A DNA stretch of 64,000 bases from Anaerotignum propionicum DSM 1682 (lineage in GTDB: Bacteria > Bacillota > Clostridia > Lachnospirales > Anaerotignaceae). The translations under genes and the position numbers were made by a program. Shown here in pieces: positions 7,931 to 39,309 of the stretch. The stretch is from the NCBI RefSeq assembly GCF_001561955.1, contig NZ_CP014223.1, positions 1,178,001 through 1,242,000 of the forward strand, in the 5' to 3' direction. Numbering within the stretch: position 1 is the stretch's first letter; every line of letters starts with the position of its first letter. The notes beneath the pieces are model-generated. The model was not told the DNA's origin. It did not search any database and saw only the letters and a list, made by a program, of their open reading frames with translations.

Positions 7931-10381
7931 GTGAAACGTTTAGTACAAAACAAAAAGGCTTTATCTATGGCGTTAGCTGCGGCTTTGGCGATTGCGCCAG
8001 TAAGCGCCTTCGCTGCTTCAAATGACATTCGTGGTCATTGGGCTGAGAGAACAATTACACAATGGCAGGATAAAGGTTTGATTGGTGGCTACCAAGATGG
8101 TACCTTTAAGCCCGATAAGCCAGCAACAAGAGCTGAATTTGCTCGCATTATGAACCAAGCATTGGGCTTGAATCATAAAGGAAATGTATCTTTTTCCGAT
8201 GTTTCCAGCAGAGATTGGTTTTATAATGACGTAGCAATTGCAATGGGAGAACAGTATACTGCGGGTTATCCCGATGGTACTTTTAAACCCAATGAAATCA
8301 TAACCAGAGCACAAGCAGCAGTTTTTATCGCAAAAGCCCTTGGTGCATCTGGAGGTTCACTGGCATCCTTTAAAGACGCATCCAGTATTCCTGCTTGGGC
8401 ACAGGGTGCAGTAGGCGGAATTGTTGAAAAAGGTTATATGAGCGGCTATCCTGATGGAACATTCAGACCAAATGCTGTTTTAACCAGAGCAGAAGCTGTT
8501 TCTACCTTAAATAGAATTATGGGTGTAAAACCTGTAGAGGAAGAAACCAAGAAAACAGAAAAAGATGTTGTGATTGATGAAAGCGGAACAAAGCTGAAAG
8601 ATCAAACAATTGAAGGAAATTTAACCATTTCCGACAAAGTTGGTAAAGGTAAGGTTACTTTAAGTAATGTTGAAATCAAAGGTGATTTGATTATTCAAGG
8701 TGGTGGGGAAAACTCCGTTTATTTAGACAACACAGTTGTTGAAGGTAAGACAGTTATGGACAAGAAGAATGTTCACCTCGAAGTTTCCGGAAAAACAAAG
8801 CTTCCAAATGTAGAAATTAAAAAAGCATGCAGCATGACTACCAGCAATTTCTCTGGAGAAGTGAAGAAAATTAGTATTACGTCGGCAATTTCTGATAAAA
8901 CAACAATTGGTGTTTCAGCAGATAAGCTATATGTGGAAGGTAAAGCAAATCTTTATATTACCAGGGACATTGCTCAAGTAATTGTCGAGAAAGATGCAGC
9001 TGGAACAGAATTAGAGATAAGCAGTAACGGAAAAGTTTCGACTCTTACTGCAGATGGAAAAGTAGCGCTAAGTGGTAGTGGTAAAATTTCCACATTAGAG
9101 GCAAATGTTGATGGGATTACATATACCTCTGCTATGACAATTAATAAAACTGAAACAGCCAAGGGTGTAGACAAACCTAGTAGAACAAATGAATCCAGCA
9201 GTAGTTCTTCCTCTTCTAGCAAAACGAGTGTAAGTGCGATTGGGATCACTGGTACTGCTGTAGTTGGCGCAAAACTAACTGCAACACCAACACCAGCAGC
9301 AGCTACCGGCACATATCAGTGGCAAAGATGCGATACAGTAAACGGAACATACACAAATATTACTGGTGCGACAGCAAGCACATATACAATTGCTACTGGC
9401 GATGCAGGTAAGTATTTAAGAGTTGTTTTTTCAGCTTCAGGCAACTATAAGGGTACTCAAACCAGTGTAGCGACAGCAGCAATCGGTACAGCGGTAGTGC
9501 CGAGTGTAAAAGTAACAGCATTGGCATTTACAGATACAGACACCGATGCTGCTCAAATGGGCGGAACAGTAACATGGACAGCACCAACAAATGTTTCCAA
9601 TGTAACAGGTTATGTAGTTTATGCATCAACAGATGGAATAACTAAGGGAGCTAAATTAGGCGAAGTAGGAGTAGGAACAAATCAATTAGTGATACCTGCA
9701 AATACAACATATGCAGCGCATATTATTGTTGTAGCAAAGAATATAACAGGCGAAGCAGTGTCAGCTAACTATGCAAGTGTTGCTGTAACCGATGTGGTGG
9801 CAGACCCAGCAGCAGGGGCAACATCAGAGCTTGCTAAGGTAACCGATGCAGTAGTAACAACAGTACCAAACGGAACAACGAATGATAAAGCTAGTATTGA
9901 AGCAGCAATGTTGGTATTAGCAAATGCAGCAGTTGATTCCGCAAACTACACGGTAACCATTGCATCAGGCTCAGCTTACGATGCAGGAACAAAAGCATGG
10001 ACTGGTAAATTTGTAGTAACAAACAAAACAACACCAGCAAATACAAAGACAGATGCAGCCAATAGAAATATCACAGTAGTAATTGCAGCAGACCCAGCAG
10101 CAGGGGCAACATCAGAGCTTGCTAAGGTAACCGATGCAGTAGTAACAACAGTACCAAACGGAACAACGAATGATAAAGCAAGTATTGAAGCAGCAATGTT
10201 GGTATTAGCAAATGCAGCAGTTGATTCCGCAAACTACACGGTAACCATTGCATCAGGCTCAGCTTACGATGCAGGAACAAAAGCATGGACTGGTAAATTT
10301 GTAGTAACAAACAAAACAACACCAGCAAATACAAAGACAGATGCAGCCAATAGAAATATCACAGTAGTAATTGCAGCATAA
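7931..10381 (+). CDS. SLH-domain surface protein with duplicated C-terminal domain
   Basis: An 816-residue exported protein with a GTG start and an AAGGGGGAAT ribosome site. A Sec signal peptide (about residues 1-29, ending AFAA) is followed by three SLH domains: DIRGHWAERTI at about 32, FSDVSSRDWFYNDV at about 92 and FKDASSIPAWAQGAV at about 150. Each is followed by a GYPDGTF or GYQDGTF motif. Such domains anchor proteins to wall-linked polysaccharide. Next come a beta-rich repeat region (about 215-400), a Ser-rich linker near 420, an Ig-like segment of the form GTYQWQRCDTVNGTYTN, and a fibronectin-like segment. The last two 96-residue units are identical at the protein level and come from a DNA duplication. 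It could be an S-layer protein or adhesin. Confidence 0.92.
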   Translation: MKRLVQNKKALSMALAAALAIAPVSAFAASNDIRGHWAERTITQWQDKGLIGGYQDGTFKPDKPATRAEFARIMNQALGLNHKGNVSFSDVSSRDWFYNDVAIAMGEQYTAGYPDGTFKPNEIITRAQAAVFIAKALGASGGSLASFKDASSIPAWAQGAVGGIVEKGYMSGYPDGTFRPNAVLTRAEAVSTLNRIMGVKPVEEETKKTEKDVVIDESGTKLKDQTIEGNLTISDKVGKGKVTLSNVEIKGDLIIQGGGENSVYLDNTVVEGKTVMDKKNVHLEVSGKTKLPNVEIKKACSMTTSNFSGEVKKISITSAISDKTTIGVSADKLYVEGKANLYITRDIAQVIVEKDAAGTELEISSNGKVSTLTADGKVALSGSGKISTLEANVDGITYTSAMTINKTETAKGVDKPSRTNESSSSSSSSSKTSVSAIGITGTAVVGAKLTATPTPAAATGTYQWQRCDTVNGTYTNITGATASTYTIATGDAGKYLRVVFSASGNYKGTQTSVATAAIGTAVVPSVKVTALAFTDTDTDAAQMGGTVTWTAPTNVSNVTGYVVYASTDGITKGAKLGEVGVGTNQLVIPANTTYAAHIIVVAKNITGEAVSANYASVAVTDVVADPAAGATSELAKVTDAVVTTVPNGTTNDKASIEAAMLVLANAAVDSANYTVTIASGSAYDAGTKAWTGKFVVTNKTTPANTKTDAANRNITVVIAADPAAGATSELAKVTDAVVTTVPNGTTNDKASIEAAMLVLANAAVDSANYTVTIASGSAYDAGTKAWTGKFVVTNKTTPANTKTDAANRNITVVIAA
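9800..10375 (+). repeat. Tandem 288-bp duplication inside the SLH protein gene
   Basis: Copy 1 is 9800-10087 and copy 2 is 10088-10375. By eye they differ at a single silent base (AAAGCTAGT against AAAGCAAGT near 9891/10179). Both encode the same 96-residue domain beginning ADPAAGATSELAKV. The unit length is a multiple of three, so copy number can change without a frameshift. Confidence 0.95.
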
Positions 10382-14315: not shown

Positions 14316-14639
14316 TTACTCATTACTCATTTCTTCTGCGGATACTGTTGGCAGATTAGACAAGTTATTGTCTTCAGTTCCATCGGGGATAGATTTTAAG
14401 TATTCCGTATCCTTTCGATGAGCAATGCCAACTCCGGCTATTTCTCCTTGTCTGGCCATTTCTATTGCTTCATTCTTATCAATCATTGTGTCATCAGATA
14501 GACGATAGCCTTTAATTTTTCCACTTTGCTTTATTAGGCCTGTAATTTTTTTGGCATTTGGTTTTGGAGTAGGAATATCATCTAGTGTGTTTTTTGCCAA
14601 TGCTTCTGATAACTCATTTTTCTCAAGGGTCTGATTCAT
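14316..14639 (-). CDS. DUF3892 domain protein
   Basis: A 107-residue protein with an excellent AGGAGG site 7 bp before the ATG. The segment KKITGLIKQSGKIKGYRLSD, then NEAIEMARQGEIAGVGIA, then YLKSIPDGTEDNNLSNLP matches the DUF3892 family, a small domain frequent in Firmicutes with no known activity. The first 40 residues are an unconserved acidic/Asn-rich tail. It is encoded alone, convergent with the TrmH gene. Confidence 0.82.
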   Translation of the reverse strand: MNQTLEKNELSEALAKNTLDDIPTPKPNAKKITGLIKQSGKIKGYRLSDDTMIDKNEAIEMARQGEIAGVGIAHRKDTEYLKSIPDGTEDNNLSNLPTVSAEEMSNE

Positions 14640-14925
14640 AACCACACCTCCTTTTTTTATTATCTTATCCATAAATCTAAAAAATATAGAAAAGATGTGT
14701 AGGTGTAAATTCTTTTAATTTTATTTTTGAGTTTATATGTTTTTTTAATCATATTGCGATGATTCAGTAGAATTTAGAATGAATAAAAAAGAAAATGTAC
14801 CTATAATCTAAGATTAAGTTACAAATAATTACAAATAATTAAAAATCACGATTTGTGATATTTTAGACTTGAATAGAGATAAGAAATGGGGATAATTCTA
14901 TACTTTATTAAAAACTTAGAATGAG

Positions 14926-14971
14926 CATTCGTAAATTCCTCCGACTATAGGGTTGGAGGAGCTTGCGAATG
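14926..14971. repeat. 17-bp stem hairpin in non-coding DNA
   Basis: Arms 14926-14942 and 14955-14971 (CATTCG with CGAATG outside, TCCTCC with GGAGGA inside) pair over 17 positions with two wobbles and one mismatch around a 12-nt loop. A second, weaker hairpin with A- and T-runs on its two sides lies at 14981-15017. The rest of 14640-15128 shows no gene. Confidence 0.6.
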
Positions 14972-15128
14972 TAATGATCTAAAAAAGGCAGAAGCGTATT
15001 AGGCTACTTTTTTTATGGATAAAATGTGACATCTATTTTAAATAGTCAGGTTATATAGTTTGAATCAGGTTTTTTAAAAAGAATTTGAATATTTCAGGGC
15101 AATATTCACAATTTTCTAAAAAATAGGG

Positions 15129-15157
15129 TTTACATACAAATGTCTTTGTGGTAGTAT
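15129..15157 (+). promoter_or_regulatory. Sigma-A promoter of the aro operon leader
   Basis: TTTACA, a 17-bp spacer and TAGTAT. The predicted transcript begins around 15164, about 40 nt before the leader-peptide start codon. Confidence 0.75.
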
Positions 15158-15203
15158 GTTTAAAAATAACCAAATAAAATTAATTGTGAAAGAGGTTGCG
15201 AAT

Positions 15204-15272
15204 ATGAATCAGATCAATTTTGCTGCAACTACATACTTTTACTTTTACCGTGTTTTCAGAGATTCAAAGTGA
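15204..15272 (+). CDS. Tyr/Phe-rich leader peptide of the aro operon
   Basis: A 22-codon ORF with an AAAGAGG ribosome site 9 bp before the ATG. The peptide is MNQINFAATTYFYFYRVF followed by RDSK. Five consecutive codons (11-15) are Tyr-Phe-Tyr-Phe-Tyr and codon 18 is Phe, so four Phe and three Tyr occur in 22 residues. It precedes a terminator and then a gene set whose end products are Phe and Tyr. This is the arrangement of the enteric pheA and trp leader peptides, where ribosome stalling at scarce-amino-acid codons controls termination. The stop codon lies inside the 5' arm of the predicted antiterminator. Confidence 0.82.
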   Translation: MNQINFAATTYFYFYRVFRDSK

Positions 15273-15353
15273 ATTTTACTGTGAGAAAAGACGGTTGGTT
15301 TTGATGGTTTTTTCTAGAATGAAGGCTAAATAGACTTCGCAGTGAAATTCGCT
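15268..15353 (+). promoter_or_regulatory. Antiterminator of the aro attenuator
   Basis: Positions 15268-15285 can pair without interruption with 15336-15353: 18 consecutive pairs, 14 Watson-Crick and 4 G-U. The 3' arm covers most of the 5' arm of the terminator, its loop and the first bases of its 3' arm, so the two folds exclude each other. The 5' arm overlaps the leader stop codon, so a ribosome that finishes translation would mask it, while one stalled at the Tyr/Phe codons would leave it free. Confidence 0.75.
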
Positions 15354-15371
15354 GCGGAGTCTTTCTTTTTA
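15332..15371 (+). terminator. Attenuator terminator of the aro operon
   Basis: AGACTTCGCAG (15332-15342) pairs with CTGCGGAGTCT (15352-15362) through 11 pairs around a 9-nt loop. TTCTTTTTAT follows. It lies about 100 nt before aroF. Confidence 0.9.
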
Positions 15372-15468
15372 TACTGGAAAACCCAAAATATGTAAGTATA
15401 GATTCTGTTTCTAGTGAACATCTTTCAAAATTAGAAAACTAAGGGACAAAATAAAGGAGGATAAAGAT

Positions 15469-16482
15469 ATGATCGTAGTGTTGAAAAACGGAACAAAGCC
15501 GGAACAAATTGATAACTTAAAGGCATGGTTAAAAAGCATGGGCATTGATACCCATATGTCTGTTGGAGTAAATCATACCATTGTTGGTTTGGTTGGAGAT
15601 ACTTCCGGTGTGGATATGGATTTGGTGCGTTCTTTGGATATTGTTGAAAATGTTCAGAGAATTCAAGAACCTTTTAAAAATGCAAATAAAAAATTCCATA
15701 ACGGAAGACTTGTAGTAGATGTAAATGGTGTAAAAATTGGTGGTGGAGAATTTCAGATTATTGCTGGTCCCTGCTCGGTAGAATCAAGAGAACAGGTTTG
15801 CTTTGTTGCGGAGTGTGTAAAGAAATCCGGCGCTGGCTTCTTGCGTGGGGGTGCCTTCAAACCCCGTACTTCCCCTTATGCTTTCCAAGGCTTGTTGGGT
15901 GAGGGCATTGACCTTTTGCTTGAGGCAAAAAAAATGACAGGGCTTCCTATCGTTTCTGAAATTATGAATATTACCCACCTTCCCTTATTTGATCCCGTTG
16001 ATGTTGTGCAGGTTGGGGCAAGAAATATGCAGAACTTTGAGCTTTTGAAAGAGCTTGGCAAGACAAAAAAGGTAATCTTATTAAAAAGAGGCTTAGCAAA
16101 TACCATTGACGAGCTGTTGATGAGCGCTGAATATATTATGGCTGGCGGCAATGAAAATGTAATTCTTTGCGAAAGAGGTATCCGTACCTTTGAAACAAGA
16201 ACCAGGAATACATTGGATTTATCCATTATTCCAGTGTTGAAAAAATTAACCCATCTGCCTGTAGTGATTGATCCCAGCCATGCGTTAGGATACTCCTACA
16301 TGGTGAAGCCCATGGCTTTGGCGGCAACCGCTGCGGGAGCCGATGGATTGATGATTGAGGTGCATAACGACCCTCCTCATGCTTTATGCGATGGAGCACA
16401 ATCATTGACACCGGAAGCATTTGATGATGTGGCAAAGGCTGTATTTCAGATTAGACCCTTCGCTTGCAGATTTGATGATTAA
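15469..16482 (+). CDS. aroF: 3-deoxy-7-phosphoheptulonate (DAHP) synthase
   Basis: A 337-residue type I-beta DAHP synthase condensing PEP and erythrose 4-phosphate, the committed step of the shikimate pathway. An N-terminal ferredoxin-like regulatory domain occupies about residues 1-70. The catalytic barrel follows with IIAGPCSVES near 100, RGGAFKPRTSPYAFQG near 127 and the metal-binding region VVIDPSHALGYSY near 265. An ideal AAAGGAGG site precedes the ATG. It is the first structural gene after the Tyr/Phe attenuator. The N-terminal domain is likely the site of allosteric feedback by Tyr, or by prephenate or chorismate, as known for this subclass. Confidence 0.95.
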   Translation: MIVVLKNGTKPEQIDNLKAWLKSMGIDTHMSVGVNHTIVGLVGDTSGVDMDLVRSLDIVENVQRIQEPFKNANKKFHNGRLVVDVNGVKIGGGEFQIIAGPCSVESREQVCFVAECVKKSGAGFLRGGAFKPRTSPYAFQGLLGEGIDLLLEAKKMTGLPIVSEIMNITHLPLFDPVDVVQVGARNMQNFELLKELGKTKKVILLKRGLANTIDELLMSAEYIMAGGNENVILCERGIRTFETRTRNTLDLSIIPVLKKLTHLPVVIDPSHALGYSYMVKPMALAATAAGADGLMIEVHNDPPHALCDGAQSLTPEAFDDVAKAVFQIRPFACRFDD

Positions 16483-16567: not shown

Positions 16568-17416
16568 ATGAATATAGGAGTAATTGGTATGGGGCTCATT
16601 GGGGGTTCTATGGCAAAGGCAATCAAACAAAAAACGGATCATACTGTGTTTGGCTGGGATGGCTCGGAAAACGTCCGTTTCAGCGCAAAGCTGGCAGAAG
16701 CGGTACATGATATTTTGGAGGAAGGAAACCCTTCCAACTGTGATTTGGTTCTAATCGCTTTATATCCGGGAGCAACGGTGGATTATGTGAAGAAATTCGC
16801 CTCCCAGTTTAAAAAGGGGGCAATGGTTGTTGATTGTGCAGGCATTAAGCGCAGTGTTTGCCAACCATTGCAGGAGGTTGCAGCACAAAATGGATTTATT
16901 TTCTGCGGTGCCCACCCCATGGCAGGGATTGAGCGTAGTGGCTTTACTTATTCAACCCCTGACTTATTTGAAGGTGCAACAATGATTTTAACACCTTATA
17001 CAGGAACGGATATTGCACCTATGAATGAGTTAAGTTTCTTTTTTAAAAGCCTTGGTTTTGCAAAAATGCAAGTTGCCACCGATGCAGAACATGACCAAAT
17101 GATTGCATATACCTCTCAATTGGCTCACGTTGTTTCCAGCGCATACATCAAAAGCGAATTGTCCCCTAAGTTTAAAGGGTTTTCAGCAGGAAGCTTTCAT
17201 GATATGACCCGTGTGGCAAAGCTCAATGAAACCATGTGGACGGAATTGTTTTTAGACAACAGCGATTTCCTCGCAGATGAAATTGATGGTTTGATTAAAC
17301 GTTTGCAGGTTTACAGCAAGGCAATACGAGAAAAAGACGGGGACAAATTAAAGGCAATTCTAAAAGAGGGTAAGGAAAAACGCCTAGCAGTAGACGATAT
17401 AAAGGAATTTGAATGA
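16568..17416 (+). CDS. tyrA: Prephenate dehydrogenase
   Basis: A 282-residue NAD(P)-dependent enzyme making 4-hydroxyphenylpyruvate from prephenate, for tyrosine synthesis. The Rossmann motif IGVIGMGLIGGSMAKAI is at residues 3-19, with CAGIKRSVCQPL near 98 and the conserved FCGAHPMAGIERSGF near 117 (His/Arg substrate contacts). It has no ACT domain at the C-terminus, so feedback control may rest on transcription or on AroF. It follows aroF by 85 bp and precedes aroB by 12 bp. Confidence 0.94.
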   Translation: MNIGVIGMGLIGGSMAKAIKQKTDHTVFGWDGSENVRFSAKLAEAVHDILEEGNPSNCDLVLIALYPGATVDYVKKFASQFKKGAMVVDCAGIKRSVCQPLQEVAAQNGFIFCGAHPMAGIERSGFTYSTPDLFEGATMILTPYTGTDIAPMNELSFFFKSLGFAKMQVATDAEHDQMIAYTSQLAHVVSSAYIKSELSPKFKGFSAGSFHDMTRVAKLNETMWTELFLDNSDFLADEIDGLIKRLQVYSKAIREKDGDKLKAILKEGKEKRLAVDDIKEFE

Positions 17417-17428
17417 GGGGTTGCCCAT

Positions 17429-18490
17429 ATGAAAAAAGTCGAGGTAAATACATCTACCCAGTACGATATATTAATTGGAAAAGGTCTCTTAACACAAGTT
17501 GGCAAAGAAATTGCAAGCCGCATTTCTCCTTGCAAGGTGGCAATGATAACAGATGATAAAGTGGATTGCTTATTTTCTGCCACCGTTGCACATTCATTAA
17601 CAAATGCAGGGTTTGATTTTTGCAAATTTGTGTTCCCAAGGGGAGAAGGTTCAAAACATATCGGCACCTTAAGTGATATCTTAGAGTTTCTGGCAGAGAA
17701 TGAAATGACTAGACAAGATATTGTCGTTGCTTTGGGCGGCGGTGTGGTAGGGGATATGGCAGGCTTTGCCGCCGCTGTTTACCAAAGAGGAATTGATTTT
17801 GTGCAAATCCCCACAACTTTTTTGGCGGCAGTAGATTCCTCTGTAGGAGGGAAAACTGCCATTGATTTAAAGGCGGGCAAAAATATGGCAGGCGCATTTT
17901 ATCAGCCGAAGTTGGTTCTTTGTGATACAAATGTTCTGCAAACTCTGCCCGAGGAAGTTTTTGCTGATGGCATTGCTGAGACCTTGAAGTATGGAATTAT
18001 AGGAAATGAAGATTTATTTAATAGGGTTGCGTCATTAGATTTTACCCATGACTTGGAAGAAATCATTGAAATTTGTGTGTCTATGAAAAGAGATATTGTA
18101 ATGCGGGACGAGTTTGACAATGGAGAACGTCAGTTGTTGAACTTGGGGCATACCTTAGGACATTCCATAGAAAAACTAAGCGACTTTTCCATTTCCCATG
18201 GGCATGGGGTTGCCATAGGGCTATACCTAATTGCCAATGCCGCAGAAGTAAGAGGTTTGGCAGAAAGTGGTTTGGCAGAACGCATTCGCAAGGCATTAAC
18301 GAAAAATGGGTTGCCTGTGAAAACCGAATTTTCTGCCCAGCAGATTGCACAGGGAACGTTGATGGACAAAAAAAGAAGGGGTGGAGCGATCAGCTTTGTA
18401 TTCCCCGAAAAAATCGGACAATGCCGTATTGAAAAAATTCCTGTTGAGGAAGTAGAGCAATTAGTGGCGGAGGCCATGAAAAGTAGGTGA
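17429..18490 (+). CDS. aroB: 3-dehydroquinate synthase
   Basis: A 353-residue NAD- and metal-dependent enzyme converting DAHP to 3-dehydroquinate. Signatures: PRGEGSKH near residue 71, VALGGGVVGDMAGFAAAVYQRG near 99, IPTTFLAAVDSSVGGKTAID near 127, and metal-binding His in LNLGHTLGHSIE near 237 and ISHGHGVAIG near 252. A GAGGGG ribosome site overlaps the tyrA stop region. It is cotranscribed with tyrA and aroA. Confidence 0.96.
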   Translation: MKKVEVNTSTQYDILIGKGLLTQVGKEIASRISPCKVAMITDDKVDCLFSATVAHSLTNAGFDFCKFVFPRGEGSKHIGTLSDILEFLAENEMTRQDIVVALGGGVVGDMAGFAAAVYQRGIDFVQIPTTFLAAVDSSVGGKTAIDLKAGKNMAGAFYQPKLVLCDTNVLQTLPEEVFADGIAETLKYGIIGNEDLFNRVASLDFTHDLEEIIEICVSMKRDIVMRDEFDNGERQLLNLGHTLGHSIEKLSDFSISHGHGVAIGLYLIANAAEVRGLAESGLAERIRKALTKNGLPVKTEFSAQQIAQGTLMDKKRRGGAISFVFPEKIGQCRIEKIPVEEVEQLVAEAMKSR

Positions 18491-18495
18491 AGTGA

Positions 18496-19761
18496 TTGAA
18501 TATTAAAATCGGAAAAAGCATTCTAAAGGGAAATATAAAAGTGATTTCTTCCAAATCCGACGCCCATCGTTTGCTGATAGGTGGGGCTTTGGCAGATAAA
18601 CCCACTAAAATTTTCTTAGAGGGCTGGTCGAATGATATAGAGGCTACAAAAAGTTGTCTTGAGACATTGGGATGCGAGGTGATACGGGACAATGACGGCA
18701 TCCAGATTACCCCCCTTTGGGATGGGCAAGCAGATGATATTGTGTTGGACTGTGTGGAAAGTGGCTCCACCCTTCGTTTTTTGCTACCCATTGTGGCTGC
18801 ATTGGGGAAGCATGCAATTCTAGAGGGACAAGGAAGGCTGCCTGAAAGACCCATTGATGTATTATTGGAGGAGCTTAGAGCTCATGGCTCTTTGGTAAAG
18901 GAAAATAATTTACCGCTGGTGATGGCGGGGCAAATTAGCGGAGGCGTTTACACACTACCGGGGAATATTAGCTCTCAGTTCATAACAGGCCTTTTGTTTG
19001 CACTACCTCTTTTAGAGGAAGACAGCGAAATACGACTAACCACAAAAATGGAATCCAGAGGTTATGTTGATATGACCTTAGATACCTTGAGACTCTTTCA
19101 AATTGAAATAGAAGAGAAAGATTGGGGTTTCAAAATAAAAGGGGGACAAACTTATCGCTCACCCCTTGAAGTTTCCGCAGAGGGTGATTGGTCAGGTGCT
19201 GCATTTTGGGTTGTTGCGGGGGGCATCGGTGGAGAGATCACTTGTACTGGCTTACGGAAGAATTCCTGTCAGGGAGACAAAGAGATTGTTGATCTAATGG
19301 AGCAGTTTGGTGCAAAGGTTACTTGGGGCGAAAATGAAGTTATGGTTTGTGGAGGCAATTTAAAGGGAATTACCATTGATGCCGCCCAGATTCCCGATTT
19401 AGTTCCTGCCCTTTGTGTAGCAGCAGCATTAGCAGAGGGAACAACGATTATTTATAATGCGGGTAGACTGCGAATGAAGGAAAGTGACCGTCTGAAGGCG
19501 ATGGCAGAAGGCTTGCAAAAGCTTGGAGTGCGTGTATCGCAACAGCCGGAGTCTATTAAGATTGAGGGGGGCAGCGTGCATCCTGAGGGGGAAGTGGTTT
19601 TAGATTCCTACGATGATCATCGCATTGTTATGTCTCTTGCAATTGCGGCGGCAGCAATGGGCGTGGAGGCGGTGATAGAAAGGGCGGAAGCTGTTTCCAA
19701 ATCTTATCCCACGTTCTTTGCAGAGTTTACACGACTAGGGGGTGCGGCGGATGTCTTCTAA
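18496..19761 (+). CDS. aroA: 3-phosphoshikimate 1-carboxyvinyltransferase (EPSP synthase)
   Basis: A 421-residue two-domain enzyme transferring the enolpyruvyl group of PEP to shikimate 3-phosphate. The shikimate-phosphate-binding motif SKSDAHRLLI lies near residue 19, GSTLRFLLPI near 92, the domain hinge SSQFITGLLFALPLL near 158, and RMKESDRLKAMAEGL near 330. It starts with TTG, 5 bp after the aroB stop with AGGTGA as ribosome site, which may lower its translation. Its last 11 bp overlap the aroC reading frame. The N-terminal SKSDAHR form is typical of clostridial enzymes. Confidence 0.94.
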   Translation: MNIKIGKSILKGNIKVISSKSDAHRLLIGGALADKPTKIFLEGWSNDIEATKSCLETLGCEVIRDNDGIQITPLWDGQADDIVLDCVESGSTLRFLLPIVAALGKHAILEGQGRLPERPIDVLLEELRAHGSLVKENNLPLVMAGQISGGVYTLPGNISSQFITGLLFALPLLEEDSEIRLTTKMESRGYVDMTLDTLRLFQIEIEEKDWGFKIKGGQTYRSPLEVSAEGDWSGAAFWVVAGGIGGEITCTGLRKNSCQGDKEIVDLMEQFGAKVTWGENEVMVCGGNLKGITIDAAQIPDLVPALCVAAALAEGTTIIYNAGRLRMKESDRLKAMAEGLQKLGVRVSQQPESIKIEGGSVHPEGEVVLDSYDDHRIVMSLAIAAAAMGVEAVIERAEAVSKSYPTFFAEFTRLGGAADVF

Positions 19762-20842
19762 CTATGGACATAAGGTGAAAATCAGCATTTTTGGACAGTC
19801 CCATTCTGATGCCATCGGTGTGGTGATCGATGGGTTGCCTGCCGGAGAAGAAATAGACTTAGAGAAGGCACAGCGGTTTTTAGACCGCAGAGCCCCCGGT
19901 AAAAATGCTTATTCTACCCCCAGAAAAGAGGGGGATCAGGTTCAGGTGGTTTCGGGTTTGTTTCAAGGCAGAACTTGCGGCGCACCAATTTGTGCAATGA
20001 TTGAGAATACAAATACAAAATCTAAAGATTATGACCAACTGAAAGACTTGCCAAGACCCGGTCATGCGGATTTTACCGCAGAAATGAAATATCAAGGTTT
20101 TCAAGACCACCGTGGTGGCGGTCATTTTTCAGGGAGATTGACAGCACCTCTTTGCTTTGCCGGGGCGGTATGCTTACAAATATTAGAGCGTAGAGGTATT
20201 GCCATTGGAGCACATATCCTTTCCATTCATGAAGGGAAAGATGAAAGCTTCAATCCTGTTGATATTACAAAAGATGAGTTGGTACAAATTAATGAAAAAG
20301 CTTTTCCCACAATAGATGATGGTGTGGCAGAAAAAATGCAGGAAATCATTCAAAAGGCTAGAGAGCAAGGGGACTCTGTTGGCGGTGTGATTGAGAGTGC
20401 TGCCATTGGACTACCGGTGGGTATTGGCGAGCCTATGTTTGATGGTTTGGAAAGTAAGCTATCTTCTATCCTATTTGCCATTCCGGCAGTAAAGGGTGTA
20501 GAGTTTGGTGAAGGCTTTGGTGCGGCAGAGCTTCTTGGCTCGGAAAACAATGATAGCTTCTATTATATAGATGAAACTGGTGAAATTAAGACGAAAACCA
20601 ATCATCATGGTGGTAGTTTGGGAGGAATCTCCAGTGGAATGCCATTGGTCGTTCGAACCGCATTTAAGCCTACCCCATCTATCAGCAAAGAGCAGTCAAC
20701 GATTAGTCTCAAGGAAGGAAAAGATGCCTCATTAAAGGTTGTAGGGAGGCATGATCCTTGTATTGTTCCCAGAGCGGTACCTTGCGTGGAGGCGGCCATG
20801 GCTATTGCTTTACTGGATTTATATGAGGAAAATAGAAAATAG
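19751..20842 (+). CDS. aroC: Chorismate synthase
   Basis: A 363-residue FMN-dependent enzyme making chorismate from EPSP. Signatures: GHKVKISIFGQSHSDAIG at the N-terminus (signature 1, conserved His), PRPGHADFTAEMKYQGF near 105 with the following HRGGGHFSGRLTA, and the C-terminal GRHDPCIVPRAVPCVEA near 335. The ATG at 19751 is 7 bp from AGGGGGT; a GTG at 19742 in the same frame lacks this spacing. It overlaps the aroA end by 11 bp, implying translational coupling. Confidence 0.95.
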   Translation: MSSNYGHKVKISIFGQSHSDAIGVVIDGLPAGEEIDLEKAQRFLDRRAPGKNAYSTPRKEGDQVQVVSGLFQGRTCGAPICAMIENTNTKSKDYDQLKDLPRPGHADFTAEMKYQGFQDHRGGGHFSGRLTAPLCFAGAVCLQILERRGIAIGAHILSIHEGKDESFNPVDITKDELVQINEKAFPTIDDGVAEKMQEIIQKAREQGDSVGGVIESAAIGLPVGIGEPMFDGLESKLSSILFAIPAVKGVEFGEGFGAAELLGSENNDSFYYIDETGEIKTKTNHHGGSLGGISSGMPLVVRTAFKPTPSISKEQSTISLKEGKDASLKVVGRHDPCIVPRAVPCVEAAMAIALLDLYEENRK

Positions 20843-20996
20843 AATTTTACAACATTATATGTTCTTTTGAATCATCTGAATTATTATATTATTAGAACAA
20901 AATACGTTTTGGTATATGTCAGAGAAACTTCCGCAGCACATTTAAATTAGGAATAGCGACCATTGAGGAAATGCTATATTTAAGGAGGAACGAAAG

Positions 20997-22136
20997 ATGG
21001 ATTTAGAGGCTTTAAGATTGAGAGTAAATGAAATTGATGATGAAATTGCCAAGCTGTTTGTAGAACGAATGCAGACATCAGCGAAAATTGCAGAGGCAAA
21101 GGCAGAAAAAAATTTACCAGTTTTAGATCAAAAAAGAGAAAACCAGGTGCTGCAACGGGTGATGGATCAAGCGGGAGAAGAATTTGAATTATATATTAAA
21201 ACCCTGTATCATACCATGTTTGAAGTCAGCAGAAGCTATCAGGCAGGCCTCTTAACAAAAGAAACACCTCTGTCTCAAGAAATTATTGCAAACTTTCAAG
21301 AACCCAAGCTGGAATTCCCCAGAAAAGCAATTGTTGCCTGCCAGGGAGTGGAGGGTTCTTATGCAGAGCGAGCATGCGGAAAGCTTTTTTCTATGCCCAA
21401 TACCATGTTTTTCAATAGTTTTGAAAGTGTGTTCAATGCTGTAGAAATGGGGCTTTGCCAATATGGCGTTTTGCCAATTGAAAACAGCTCTGCCGGTTCA
21501 GTAACAGAAGTGTATGATTTGATGGTTCGTCATAAATTTTATGTGGTAAAAAGTTTAAAACTGCATATCAATCATGCCCTTGTAACGAAAAAAGGCATTA
21601 AGCTTTCCGACATCAAAGAAATCATCTCTCATGAGCAAGCTTTGCAGCAATGCAGTGAATTTTTGAAATCCTTACCTAATGTAAAAGTTACTGTGTTCGA
21701 AAATACAGCTACAGCGGCAAAATATGTTGCGGAATGTGACCGTACAGATATAGCGGCACTTTCTTCACCTGAATGCGCAAAGCTCTATGGCTTAGATATT
21801 CTGAAAGAGGATGTTCAGAATAATGCCAATAACTATACTCGCTTTATTTGTATCGCAAAGAATATGGAGATTTATGCCGGAGCAAACAAAATAAGCTTAA
21901 TGCTTTCTGTAGAACATAGACCGGGCTCTCTTCATGAAATGATTGGGAAGGTTGCATGCCAAGGTTTGAATCTTTCCAAGCTGGAAAGCCGTCCTATCCC
22001 AGGGAAAGATTTTGAATTTCGCTTCTATTTTGACATCGAGGGTTCCGTATTCTCTCCTTATGTATTGACACTACTGAAGGATATGGAATTATCCGCAGAA
22101 CAATTATCCTTCTTAGGATGCTATTCAGAAATGTAA
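20997..22136 (+). CDS. pheA: Bifunctional chorismate mutase / prephenate dehydratase (P-protein)
   Basis: A 379-residue fusion leading chorismate to phenylpyruvate. Residues 1-85 are an AroQ-type chorismate mutase (LRLRVNEIDDEIAKLFVERM). About 105-285 is prephenate dehydratase (VEGSYAERA, then LPIENSSAGSVTEVYDLM, then the FICIAKN segment after YTR). About 295-375 is an ACT domain with LMLSVEHRPGSLHEMI and the Phe-binding ESRP motif, predicting feedback inhibition by phenylalanine. AAGGAGG is 8 bp upstream. The 154-bp gap before it is the widest in the operon and contains no clear terminator. Confidence 0.95.
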   Translation: MDLEALRLRVNEIDDEIAKLFVERMQTSAKIAEAKAEKNLPVLDQKRENQVLQRVMDQAGEEFELYIKTLYHTMFEVSRSYQAGLLTKETPLSQEIIANFQEPKLEFPRKAIVACQGVEGSYAERACGKLFSMPNTMFFNSFESVFNAVEMGLCQYGVLPIENSSAGSVTEVYDLMVRHKFYVVKSLKLHINHALVTKKGIKLSDIKEIISHEQALQQCSEFLKSLPNVKVTVFENTATAAKYVAECDRTDIAALSSPECAKLYGLDILKEDVQNNANNYTRFICIAKNMEIYAGANKISLMLSVEHRPGSLHEMIGKVACQGLNLSKLESRPIPGKDFEFRFYFDIEGSVFSPYVLTLLKDMELSAEQLSFLGCYSEM

Positions 22137-22147
22137 GGGGCGATGGT

Positions 22148-22600
22148 ATGAAGATTCTCGTACTGAACGGACCAAACTTGAATATGCTCGGGATTCGTGA
22201 AAAAGGAATTTATGGAAATGAAACCTATGAGGACTTGGTGCGTTTCATTGAAGAAACAGCCAATGAAGAAGGTATTGAGGTGGAAATAGTACAATCCAAT
22301 CATGAGGGTGCTTTGGTTGACCGCATACAGCAGGCTTACTTCGATAAAACAGAGGGGATTGTGATAAATCCCGCTGCCTATACCCATACCAGCGTTGCCA
22401 TTTTGGATGCGTTGAAGGCGGTGAATCTGCCTGCAGTAGAGGTGCATATTTCTGATGTGAGCCAGAGAGAAGATTTTCGTCAGATTTCCTATGCGGGAAA
22501 GGCTTGTGTCAAAACGATTATGGGCAAAGGCTTTTTGGGATATAAAGAAGCCATGCTGTTTTTACTGGAAAGAAGTAATGGGGAGGGGAAGAAGCGATGA
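22148..22600 (+). CDS. aroQ: Type II 3-dehydroquinate dehydratase
   Basis: A 150-residue protein of standard type II length. It removes water from 3-dehydroquinate to give 3-dehydroshikimate. MKILVLNGPNLNMLGIREKG is the N-terminal signature, with the active-site Tyr in the following YGNETYEDL. EIVQSNHEGALVDRI and GIVINPAAYTHTSVAILDAL (catalytic His) are intact, and VEVHISDVSQREDFR follows. It begins 11 bp after pheA and its stop overlaps the next start by 4 bp (ATGA). Confidence 0.95.
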   Translation: MKILVLNGPNLNMLGIREKGIYGNETYEDLVRFIEETANEEGIEVEIVQSNHEGALVDRIQQAYFDKTEGIVINPAAYTHTSVAILDALKAVNLPAVEVHISDVSQREDFRQISYAGKACVKTIMGKGFLGYKEAMLFLLERSNGEGKKR

Positions 22601-23784
22601 TTTCAAAAAATATGAAGGAATTGGTAGATAAGAGCGCCGCAATTAGTGCACTATTTACGGAAGGCCCACGATTGCGTAAACTATTGGGGGATGAAAATGT
22701 TTTTGATTTTGGCATTGGCAACCCCAACGTGAAGGCTCCCATTTCGGTCAATGAAACAGCAATTGAATTGCTAGAGAATATGGATTCTTTGACGCTACAT
22801 AGCTATACTGACGGTGCAGGCATACCTTCGGTACGTCAGGCCATTGCGGAAAGCCTAAATCGTCGTTTTGGTGAAGAATATACAGGAAAAAATATTGTTA
22901 TGACCACAGGTGCGGCTGGAGGCTTGAATGTTATTTTAAAAGTTCTCTTGGATCAAGGGGACGAAGTTTTGACCTTTGCCCCTTATTTTTCAGAATACGA
23001 TGTATATGTTGCCAATGCAGGTGGACGATTGATTTCCATTGCCCCCAATATTCCTTCTTTCTTACCTGATGCCAACAAATTGGAGGAAGCGATTAGCTCC
23101 AAAACAAAGGCAATTATCATTAACAACCCCAATAACCCCACAGGTGTGGTTTATGATGAAGAAACCCTGAAAAAGGTTGCAGAGGTTTTAAACAAGAAGG
23201 GGAAAGAATTTGGAACTACGATTTATTTGATTTCTGATGAGCCATACAGGGAATTGGTTTTTGATGGTGTGACAGTGCCTTACATACCAAAGATTTATGG
23301 TAATACAATTGTTGCCTACTCCTTCTCAAAATCCCTTTCCTTGCCGGGCGATAGAATTGGTTATTTAACCATCCCTTCTACTGTGGAAGATTTTGAGGAT
23401 GTGGTTTACGGCACAGGGGTAGCTAACCGTGTGCTGGGGTTTGTCAATGCCCCTGCATTACAGCAATTGGTGGTGGCAAGATGCTGTGATGAAAAGTCGG
23501 ACATTGCTTTTTATGATAAAAACAGGGAAATTCTATACAATGCCTTAATCAGCTACGGTTTTGAATGTGCAAAACCACAAGGCGCATTTTACCTCTTTGT
23601 AAAGGCGCTGGAAGAAGATGATGTTGCTTTTGTAAATAAAGCCAAGGAATACGGTATTCTGATGACACCAGGTAGAGGTTTTGGTTGTAAAGGTTATGTC
23701 AGAATTGCCTATTGTGTGGCAAGAGCTGTCATCGAGAGAGCCCTTCCTTCCTTTGAAAAGCTGGCAAAGGCGTATAAAAAATAA
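22597..23784 (+). CDS. Class I/II PLP aminotransferase (probable aromatic or aspartate aminotransferase)
   Basis: A 395-residue fold-type I aminotransferase. The PLP lysine is in VAYSFSKSLSLPGDRIGYL near residue 247. Other features are IINNPNNPTGVVYDEE near 171, LISDEPYRELVF near 212, and the C-terminal Arg in KGYVRIAYC. The last-gene position in an operon that makes phenylpyruvate and hydroxyphenylpyruvate suggests it performs the final transamination to Phe and Tyr; the family alone does not settle specificity. ATGA overlap with aroQ indicates coupling. A perfect palindromic terminator follows. Confidence 0.9.
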   Translation: MISKNMKELVDKSAAISALFTEGPRLRKLLGDENVFDFGIGNPNVKAPISVNETAIELLENMDSLTLHSYTDGAGIPSVRQAIAESLNRRFGEEYTGKNIVMTTGAAGGLNVILKVLLDQGDEVLTFAPYFSEYDVYVANAGGRLISIAPNIPSFLPDANKLEEAISSKTKAIIINNPNNPTGVVYDEETLKKVAEVLNKKGKEFGTTIYLISDEPYRELVFDGVTVPYIPKIYGNTIVAYSFSKSLSLPGDRIGYLTIPSTVEDFEDVVYGTGVANRVLGFVNAPALQQLVVARCCDEKSDIAFYDKNREILYNALISYGFECAKPQGAFYLFVKALEEDDVAFVNKAKEYGILMTPGRGFGCKGYVRIAYCVARAVIERALPSFEKLAKAYKK

Positions 23785-39054: not shown

Positions 39055-39309
39055 TAGAAACTGCAAAAGACAGTGAAAAAGAGGAGTATGTATCGATCAT
39101 TGCCAGAGAGAAAGGGTCATCGGCTGTAAGCCCTTTTCAAAATAGGATACAGAAGGTAGCTTTTGAGTTGTTTTGCTGAAGGATTATTTCTGTGTAGGCA
39201 AAAACGGTTTACCCCGTTATCGGTTATTGAGTGTCTGCCCTTTGGGCAGAAATTAAGGTGGTACCGCGAGTTTTCGTCCTTTTTAGGGATGGAAGCTTTT
39301 TTTTTATAA
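39055..39309 (+). promoter_or_regulatory. T-box leader of valS
   Basis: The T-box sequence AAGGTGGTACCGCG is at 39255-39268. A Stem I region lies upstream (AGAAAGGGTCATCGGCTG, etc.), with a likely specifier codon GTA (Val) at 39156-39158 in GAAGGTAGC. A terminator follows: GAGTTTTCGTCC pairs with GGGATGGAAGCT and is followed by a run of T (39298-39307). Uncharged tRNA-Val would stabilise the antiterminator and permit valS transcription. Confidence 0.9.

Follow-up and report, generated by a model that had tools for sequence, protein, structure and literature searches.

Predicted Tyr/Phe leader-peptide attenuation of the aroF operon in Anaerotignum propionicum, and aromatic leader ORFs before aroF in other Clostridia

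The region 15129-15371 of the window (the whole analysed stretch, 64,000 nucleotides from Anaerotignum propionicum DSM 1682) is very probably a ribosome-mediated transcription attenuator that senses the charging of Tyr-tRNA and Phe-tRNA. According to sequence and folds, it combines an aromatic leader ORF, an intrinsic terminator, a downstream operon whose products match the codons, and an antiterminator exclusive with the terminator. Sequence and comparison with relatives show the individual parts, how far they are conserved and that the two helices exclude each other, and the dependence of the switch on the ribosome footprint is predicted by computed folds. The features are located as follows (positions in the window).

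15129-15157, + strand: promoter, TTTACA (15129-15134), 17 nt, TAGTAT (15152-15157); sequence TGTGGTAGTAT
15191-15195, + strand: Shine-Dalgarno site of the leader, AGAGG, read from the sequence
15204-15272, + strand: leader peptide ORF, ATG at 15204, 22 codons, stop TGA at 15270-15272; peptide MNQINFAATTYFYFYRVFRDSK
15234-15248, + strand: control codons, codons 11-15, TAC TTT TAC TTT TAC (Tyr-Phe-Tyr-Phe-Tyr)
15247-15257 with 15285-15295, + strand: hairpin P1, a possible 1:2 (protector) hairpin with a central G.G mismatch
15268-15285, + strand: antiterminator 5′ arm, containing the leader stop codon and pairing with 15336-15353
15284-15292 with 15307-15315, + strand: hairpin P2, predicted within the antiterminator state and exclusive with P1
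15332-15371, + strand: intrinsic terminator with a 14-pair stem (15332-15362), a 3-nt loop and a T-rich tail TTCTTTTTAT
15336-15353, + strand: antiterminator 3′ arm, overlapping the terminator 5′ arm, its loop and part of its 3′ arm
15469-16482, + strand: aroF, DAHP synthase, first gene of the regulated operon (NF006421 and TIGR01361 above cut-off)
16568-23784, + strand: remaining operon genes (ORFs and NCBIfam search)

Several of these parts had been named in a preliminary description of the sequence. The TTTACA-N17-TAGTAT promoter lies where it had been placed, and a promoter-like site of the same form starts 62-81 nt 5′ of the leader ATG in 24 of 24 relatives. Reading the sequence likewise confirms the 22-codon leader with its ribosome site and five consecutive Tyr/Phe codons. 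The proposed 18-pair antiterminator forms 18/18 pairs, four of them G-U, and its helix score is equalled by none of 2000 dinucleotide shuffles of the leader. The terminator, previously given 11 pairs, has a stem of 14.

Regarding other chance controls on the single sequence, the leader RNA has a fold z of −3.44 (1 of 200 shuffles as stable or more). Positions 14600-15600 hold three terminator-like sites against a shuffle mean of 0.2, these calls being the leader terminator and one aroF-internal hairpin counted on both strands. Shuffling the element's own upstream region produces a dense-aromatic ORF with a Shine-Dalgarno site in 34 of 2000 cases, and 7 of 566 tiles of the window contain one, two of the seven being the leader itself. 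As a lone signal, the promoter match stays at chance level (6 found and 5.8 expected in the scan of 14600-15600). Either the promoter or the aromatic ORF alone is unconvincing; the combination, together with its conservation, is convincing.

The operon has the order aroF-tyrA-aroB-aroA-aroC-pheA-aroQ-aminotransferase and is followed by mraZ. The first five genes encode DAHP synthase, prephenate dehydrogenase, 3-dehydroquinate synthase, EPSP synthase and chorismate synthase, and the last three encode chorismate mutase/prephenate dehydratase, type II dehydroquinase and a PLP-dependent aminotransferase. The names of prephenate dehydrogenase (E 2e-45) and mutase/dehydratase (E 1e-63) are those of the best NCBIfam matches, which are under the curated cut-offs. 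The operon makes Phe and Tyr, i.e., the amino acids of the control codons.

In the proposed mechanism, RNA polymerase would start at about 15164, as placed from the −10 site, and the leader would be translated at once by a ribosome. With both Tyr-tRNA and Phe-tRNA charged, the ribosome would reach the stop codon at 15270 and cover the antiterminator 5′ arm (15268-15285); the terminator (15332-15362) would then form, leaving the aromatic operon untranscribed. With Tyr or Phe in short supply, the ribosome would stall at 15234-15248, upstream of the 5′ arm, and the free arm could pair with the emerging segment 15336-15353, preventing the terminator and allowing read-through into the operon from aroF to the aminotransferase gene. 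We infer the transcription start, leader translation, stalling and the response to Tyr and Phe, the response to both amino acids being deduced from the mixed codons.

In the pheA and trp attenuators of enterobacteria, the biosynthetic operon is preceded by a short ORF in which codons for the end product are clustered in a run. A ribosome finishing at the stop codon blocks the antiterminator, which is exclusive with the terminator. The present leader has the same layout as these enteric systems as they are generally known, with codon run, stop placement, exclusive folds and operon all corresponding. It differs in sequence, in host phylum, in its mixed Tyr/Phe run and in its weakly supported protector hairpin, and the controlled genes cover both the common pathway and the branches to Tyr and Phe.

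The preliminary description held that the stop codon inside the antiterminator arm makes a stalled and a finishing ribosome select opposite folds, and computed folds with the ribosome footprint masked, in the window and in 24 relatives, reproduce this behaviour. For transcripts that extend no further than the antiterminator 3′ arm, a mask up to 15248, 15254 or 15260 yields a predicted antiterminator in 24/24. When the mask extends to about 15285, as for a ribosome at the stop codon, the terminator is predicted in 24/24. As for stalled full transcripts at equilibrium, the terminator is the better fold in 14/24 with a mask to 15260 and the terminator completely transcribed, and in the window itself it is also the better equilibrium fold with a mask to 15248. 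The switch must therefore be kinetic, decided during RNA synthesis.

Ribosome-free transcripts were folded from 15216. Extended to the T-run, they give the terminator in 23/24; ending at the antiterminator 3′ arm, they give the antiterminator in 18/24, with P1 favoured in 3/24. Since incomplete transcripts without a ribosome favour the antiterminator, untranslated leaders may leak, and because of the same 18/24 a strong protector hairpin is not demonstrated. P1 was considered as a firm protector and set aside: on the single sequence 467 of 2000 shuffles give an equally good helix, and the free folds do not favour it. It is a possible protector, which could prevent leakage from untranslated leaders.

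The element is conserved within the host family. Starting from the aroF protein, a search revealed related leaders 5′ of aroF in 7/7 other genomes of the same genus and in 5 further genomes of the family. A covariance model built from 13 leaders (window included), whose mean column identity is 85%, gives a strong match in 24 of 58 family genomes. The carriers fall into four genera (8/8 genomes of the host genus, 7/7, 2/2 and 7/9), with none in the other 13 genera of the family, and the element lies directly 5′ of aroF in all 24 carrier genomes. Across 295 genomes of the host order, the model yields one weak match only (G222, E 5e-4). Five weak second matches in family genomes (E 1e-4 to 9e-4) are to the complementary strand at loci already matched, probably because the terminator is self-complementary. 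Two of the nine genomes of one carrier genus, G031 and G071, are without a covariance-model match; in G031 aroF is 75% identical, but no aromatic leader was found upstream of it.

The Shine-Dalgarno-like site, the leader ORF and the aromatic run are each kept in 24/24 relatives. The run reads YFYFY in 21, YFYSY in 2 and YWFYFS in 1; Tyr is, judging from these sequences, its more constant residue compared with Phe. The stop codon is a TGA inside the antiterminator arm in 22/24. In L152 a TAA lies at the far side of the arm and the leader extends to 27 codons, and in L150 a TAG stands 11 nt before the arm, with RVD as the peptide end. The preliminary description had made its reading depend on conservation of the leader ORF and of two exclusive folds in close relatives, and both are kept in the 24 carriers. 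The short Tyr/Phe-rich ORF that it suggested looking for before aroF in related genomes is present in the same 24.

Peptide residues beyond the run are also conserved in the 24 relatives (RVFRDSK, FAA). Leaders of the TnaC and Erm type arrest the ribosome through the nascent peptide in response to a small molecule, and the aromatic codons could in principle be an arrest sequence of this kind; besides the conserved non-run residues, the recurrence of longer motifs such as SWGYF(Y)FSAG in other Clostridia speaks for such sensing. However, the conserved 3′ codons of the 24 relatives coincide with the segments that pair in P1 and the antiterminator, and L150 and L152 have different peptide ends but keep the RNA arm, apart from a single changed base in L152. 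The residues of the run also vary yet stay aromatic-rich. For the present leader, arrest by the nascent peptide is thus very unlikely, and sensing of tRNA charging through stalling at the run accounts better for the pattern.

The 85% column identity exceeds what a peptide alone needs, which would suit an RNA that binds an aromatic metabolite or a protein directly, with an incidental ORF. Against such a riboswitch or protein-bound leader, the start codon, Shine-Dalgarno site, frame and aromatic run persist in 24/24 while the surroundings of the start vary; no Rfam family matches the leader region (15100-15500) at gathering score (release 15, 4227 models); and the conservation is explained without any aptamer-like multi-helix fold. 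This alternative is highly improbable, and translation-dependent attenuation is again preferred.

The covariation test suggested in the preliminary description gave a divided result, since the terminator and P1 show two-sided changes and the antiterminator shows none. The terminator has 14/14 pairs in 24/24 sequences, four of them with changes on both sides. Of the 11 pairs of P1, 20 relatives keep 10, three keep 9 and one keeps 8, and a single pair is changed on both sides, in two sequences. Together, terminator and P1 have 5 pairs changed on both sides (shuffle mean 1.6), corresponding to 11 cells (mean 3.1). As for P2, 7-9 of its 9 pairs are found on the alignment in 22/24, and 4/9 in the other two.

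The antiterminator retains 14-18 of 18 pairs across the 24 relatives, and its 13-pair core is complete in 23/24 (12/13 in L152). Compensatory changes were found in 0/18 of its pairs, in 13 as well as in 24 sequences. The varying pairs that still pair change on one side only and do not pass the shuffle control, so compensatory proof is lacking for this helix. When the register is slid, pairing drops from 95% to 35-47%. The sequences favour the antiterminator by its conservation and by the failure of slid registers; the conservation of the arms could have another reason.

The 97 bases between 15371 and the aroF start suffice for a promoter. The terminator might accordingly end an upstream or leader transcript, with aroF transcribed from its own promoter 3′ of 15371 and the ORF encoding a small functional peptide. 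However, the scan of 14600-15600 finds no forward sigma-70-like site downstream of 15157, the antiterminator (0 of 2000 shuffles) is left unexplained, and the strong element matches sit just 5′ of aroF in 24/24 genomes. Such an arrangement has next to no probability beside attenuation of the operon by the leader.

According to family databases, the leader is equally unfamiliar at the protein level: the peptide has no Pfam or NCBIfam match at E ≤ 1, and four wider relatives are likewise without a family match. As it is matched by neither these nor Rfam at gathering score, annotation pipelines built on them would miss the leader. The Rfam trpB motif RF04312 aligns to 15263-15371 at 27.3 bits against a cut-off of 59 (E 0.08), which was taken as a chance similarity driven by the terminator; over 148 genomes of the class this model gives 8 weak matches, none above cut-off and none in the genome itself.

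T-boxes sense the charging of the same tRNAs by direct tRNA binding, with no ribosome, and TRAP control involves repeated NAG triplets in the leader together with a TRAP gene. The T-box model RF00230 has no match at 15129-15371. The sole T-box of the window, at 39064-39284 (142 bits), lies upstream of a gene whose start resembles valyl-tRNA synthetase by eye. The own genome has 18 T-boxes above cut-off. Family search identified five of the genes they lead, namely, pheS, tyrS, trpE, a TrpB-like enzyme and a homologue of the tryptophan ABC transporter binding protein, the last below the curated cut-off. The T-box leaders of pheS, tyrS and trpE are thus alike in tRNAs and genome, and the attenuator differs from them in sensing through the ribosome. 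With pheS, tyrS and trpE each preceded by a T-box, the cell would use T-boxes for dedicated genes and a leader peptide for the operon common to several amino acids. A plausible reason for this split is that a leader peptide may respond to two amino acids, a T-box to a single one. In this way a leader peptide can serve as an OR gate over several amino acids, and a single genome that combines both kinds of sensor in this manner offers a clean test of sensor choice in evolution.

Aromatic leaders before aroF are also frequent outside the host family. In a set of 80 aroF loci from named genomes, 55 have an aromatic leader ORF, defined as an ORF of 10-60 codons that follows a Shine-Dalgarno site, has 5 or more aromatic residues within 7 and lies within 450 bases upstream. 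The controls give 0/80 on the reverse strand, 9/800 in shuffles and 0/160 in aroF-internal stretches. In a class-wide set, with genomes drawn across Clostridia and one aroF per genome, 57 of 108 upstream regions have such an ORF versus 2/108 on the reverse strand. The class figures are estimates because of the single aroF per genome, the permissive leader test and the short upstream stretches. The 188 regions of both sets contain no near-identical pair and form 175 clusters at 75% identity.

As for T-boxes at Rfam gathering score, 5 of the 51 class loci without a leader have one, each in the same orientation as aroF; none was found in the 19 leader-less named loci, nor in the 9 leader-bearing class loci scanned out of 57. 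After clustering, the 57 leader loci correspond to 49 clusters and the 5 T-box loci to 3. We lean, with little more than even confidence, towards aromatic-leader attenuation being the commonest recognisable aroF control in Clostridia, well ahead of T-boxes, because one leader answers two or three tRNAs (Tyr, Phe and, elsewhere, Trp) while the single-amino-acid genes (pheS, tyrS, trpE) keep one-tRNA T-boxes.

Structural elements accompany many of these ORFs. Among 112 leaders pooled from the two sets (L031 and L032 come from the same genomes as two members of the family set), a terminator follows the run in 100 regions, versus 29/73 regions lacking a leader and 22/112 reverse strands. In 43 of the 100, pairing of the post-run region with the terminator arm scores in the top 5% of mononucleotide shuffles. 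In 26 of the 100, codons before the run pair with the post-run region at the same top-5% level, giving the classic 1:2 element.

Regarding earlier reports, the preliminary description contrasted this enteric-type design with aromatic operons of Firmicutes under T-box or TRAP control. This contrast is too strong in view of the precedents described for S. aureus ilv, bacilli hisS/hisZ and Acholeplasma aroF, and the Clostridia sample has more aromatic leader ORFs than T-boxes before aroF. The view that aromatic control in Firmicutes is mainly by T-box or TRAP is itself questioned by 57/108 leader ORFs versus 5 T-boxes among the 51 leader-less loci. The Leu-rich attenuator peptide of S. aureus ilv is described as having experimental support from attenuator mutants and Leu depletion (PMC5794164). 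It exemplifies leader-peptide attenuation in a Firmicute, as proposed here, but with leucine codons and a branched-chain operon. According to the accessible text of PMC2965389, the His leader peptides predicted for hisS/hisZ in bacilli were the first regular ones described in Firmicutes.

The closest precedents concern aroF and shikimate genes. The uORFC-13-1 motif before aroF in Acholeplasma is described as a short ORF with at least one Phe codon, a possible promoter, a ribosome site and a terminator, with 24 representatives restricted to Acholeplasma and environmental sequences (PMC8632094). By description alone, it shares aroF, a short Phe-containing ORF and a terminator with the present leader; unlike the latter, it has no antiterminator in the accessible part of its description (PMC8632094). 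A study of five genomes, among them Clostridium novyi, describes two candidate uORFs that carry F and Y codons ahead of shikimate genes (PMC6429828). Compared by description only, they resemble the present leader in their Phe/Tyr codons and position, and part of the wider set of Clostridia leaders may correspond to them. The terms "aroF" and "leader peptide" are absent from the accessible main text of a 2024 study of 50 genomes (PMC11109978), and the words aromatic, phenylalanine and tyrosine from that of PMC10053330 on A. propionicum. No aroF leader peptide in Anaerotignum or across Clostridia was found among the matches listed, which comprised titles and abstract starts outside subscription papers and supplements. 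Attenuation of this kind is established, and precedents exist for aroF; the Anaerotignum-type leader family and the breadth in Clostridia were not found among the same listed matches.

Other observations concern the window outside the operon and further aroF loci. An ORF at 7931-10381 of the window has, judged by eye, S-layer-homology-like repeats at its N-terminus, and a segment of about 100 residues occurs in two nearly identical copies in its C-terminal part. In ten loci (L035, L043, L044, L063, L068, L078, L080, L097, L103 and L107), an aroF 64-74% identical to that of the window lies on MAG contigs labelled Spirochaetes, Treponema, Planctomycetes, Thermoguttaceae, Lentisphaerae or Victivallales. 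These off-phylum copies reflect either gene transfer or mis-binned contigs. Three of the loci (L063, L068 and L097) have an aromatic ORF upstream of aroF that is without a clear Shine-Dalgarno site.

A second type of aroF leader occurs in other Clostridia, with a recurring motif like FSWGYF(Y)FSAGxFxCKK and Phe, Tyr and often Trp codons. Among 19 loci compared, it was seen in L018, L021, L055, L058, L092, L192, L202-L204, L209, L212, L223, L226, L229, L244 and L248, and the motif is conserved beyond its aromatic residues, which may reflect RNA pairing or a nascent-peptide role. Several of the 26 leaders whose pre-run codons pair with the post-run region do so through Phe-Ala-Ala codons (TTTGCAGC). 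Such pairing may explain otherwise puzzling conserved residues of those leader peptides. In L041, L047, L054, L057 and L089 (L041 and L047 being close relatives of each other), the pairing between the Phe-Ala-Ala codons preceding the run and the sequence after it extends over 10-14 bases.
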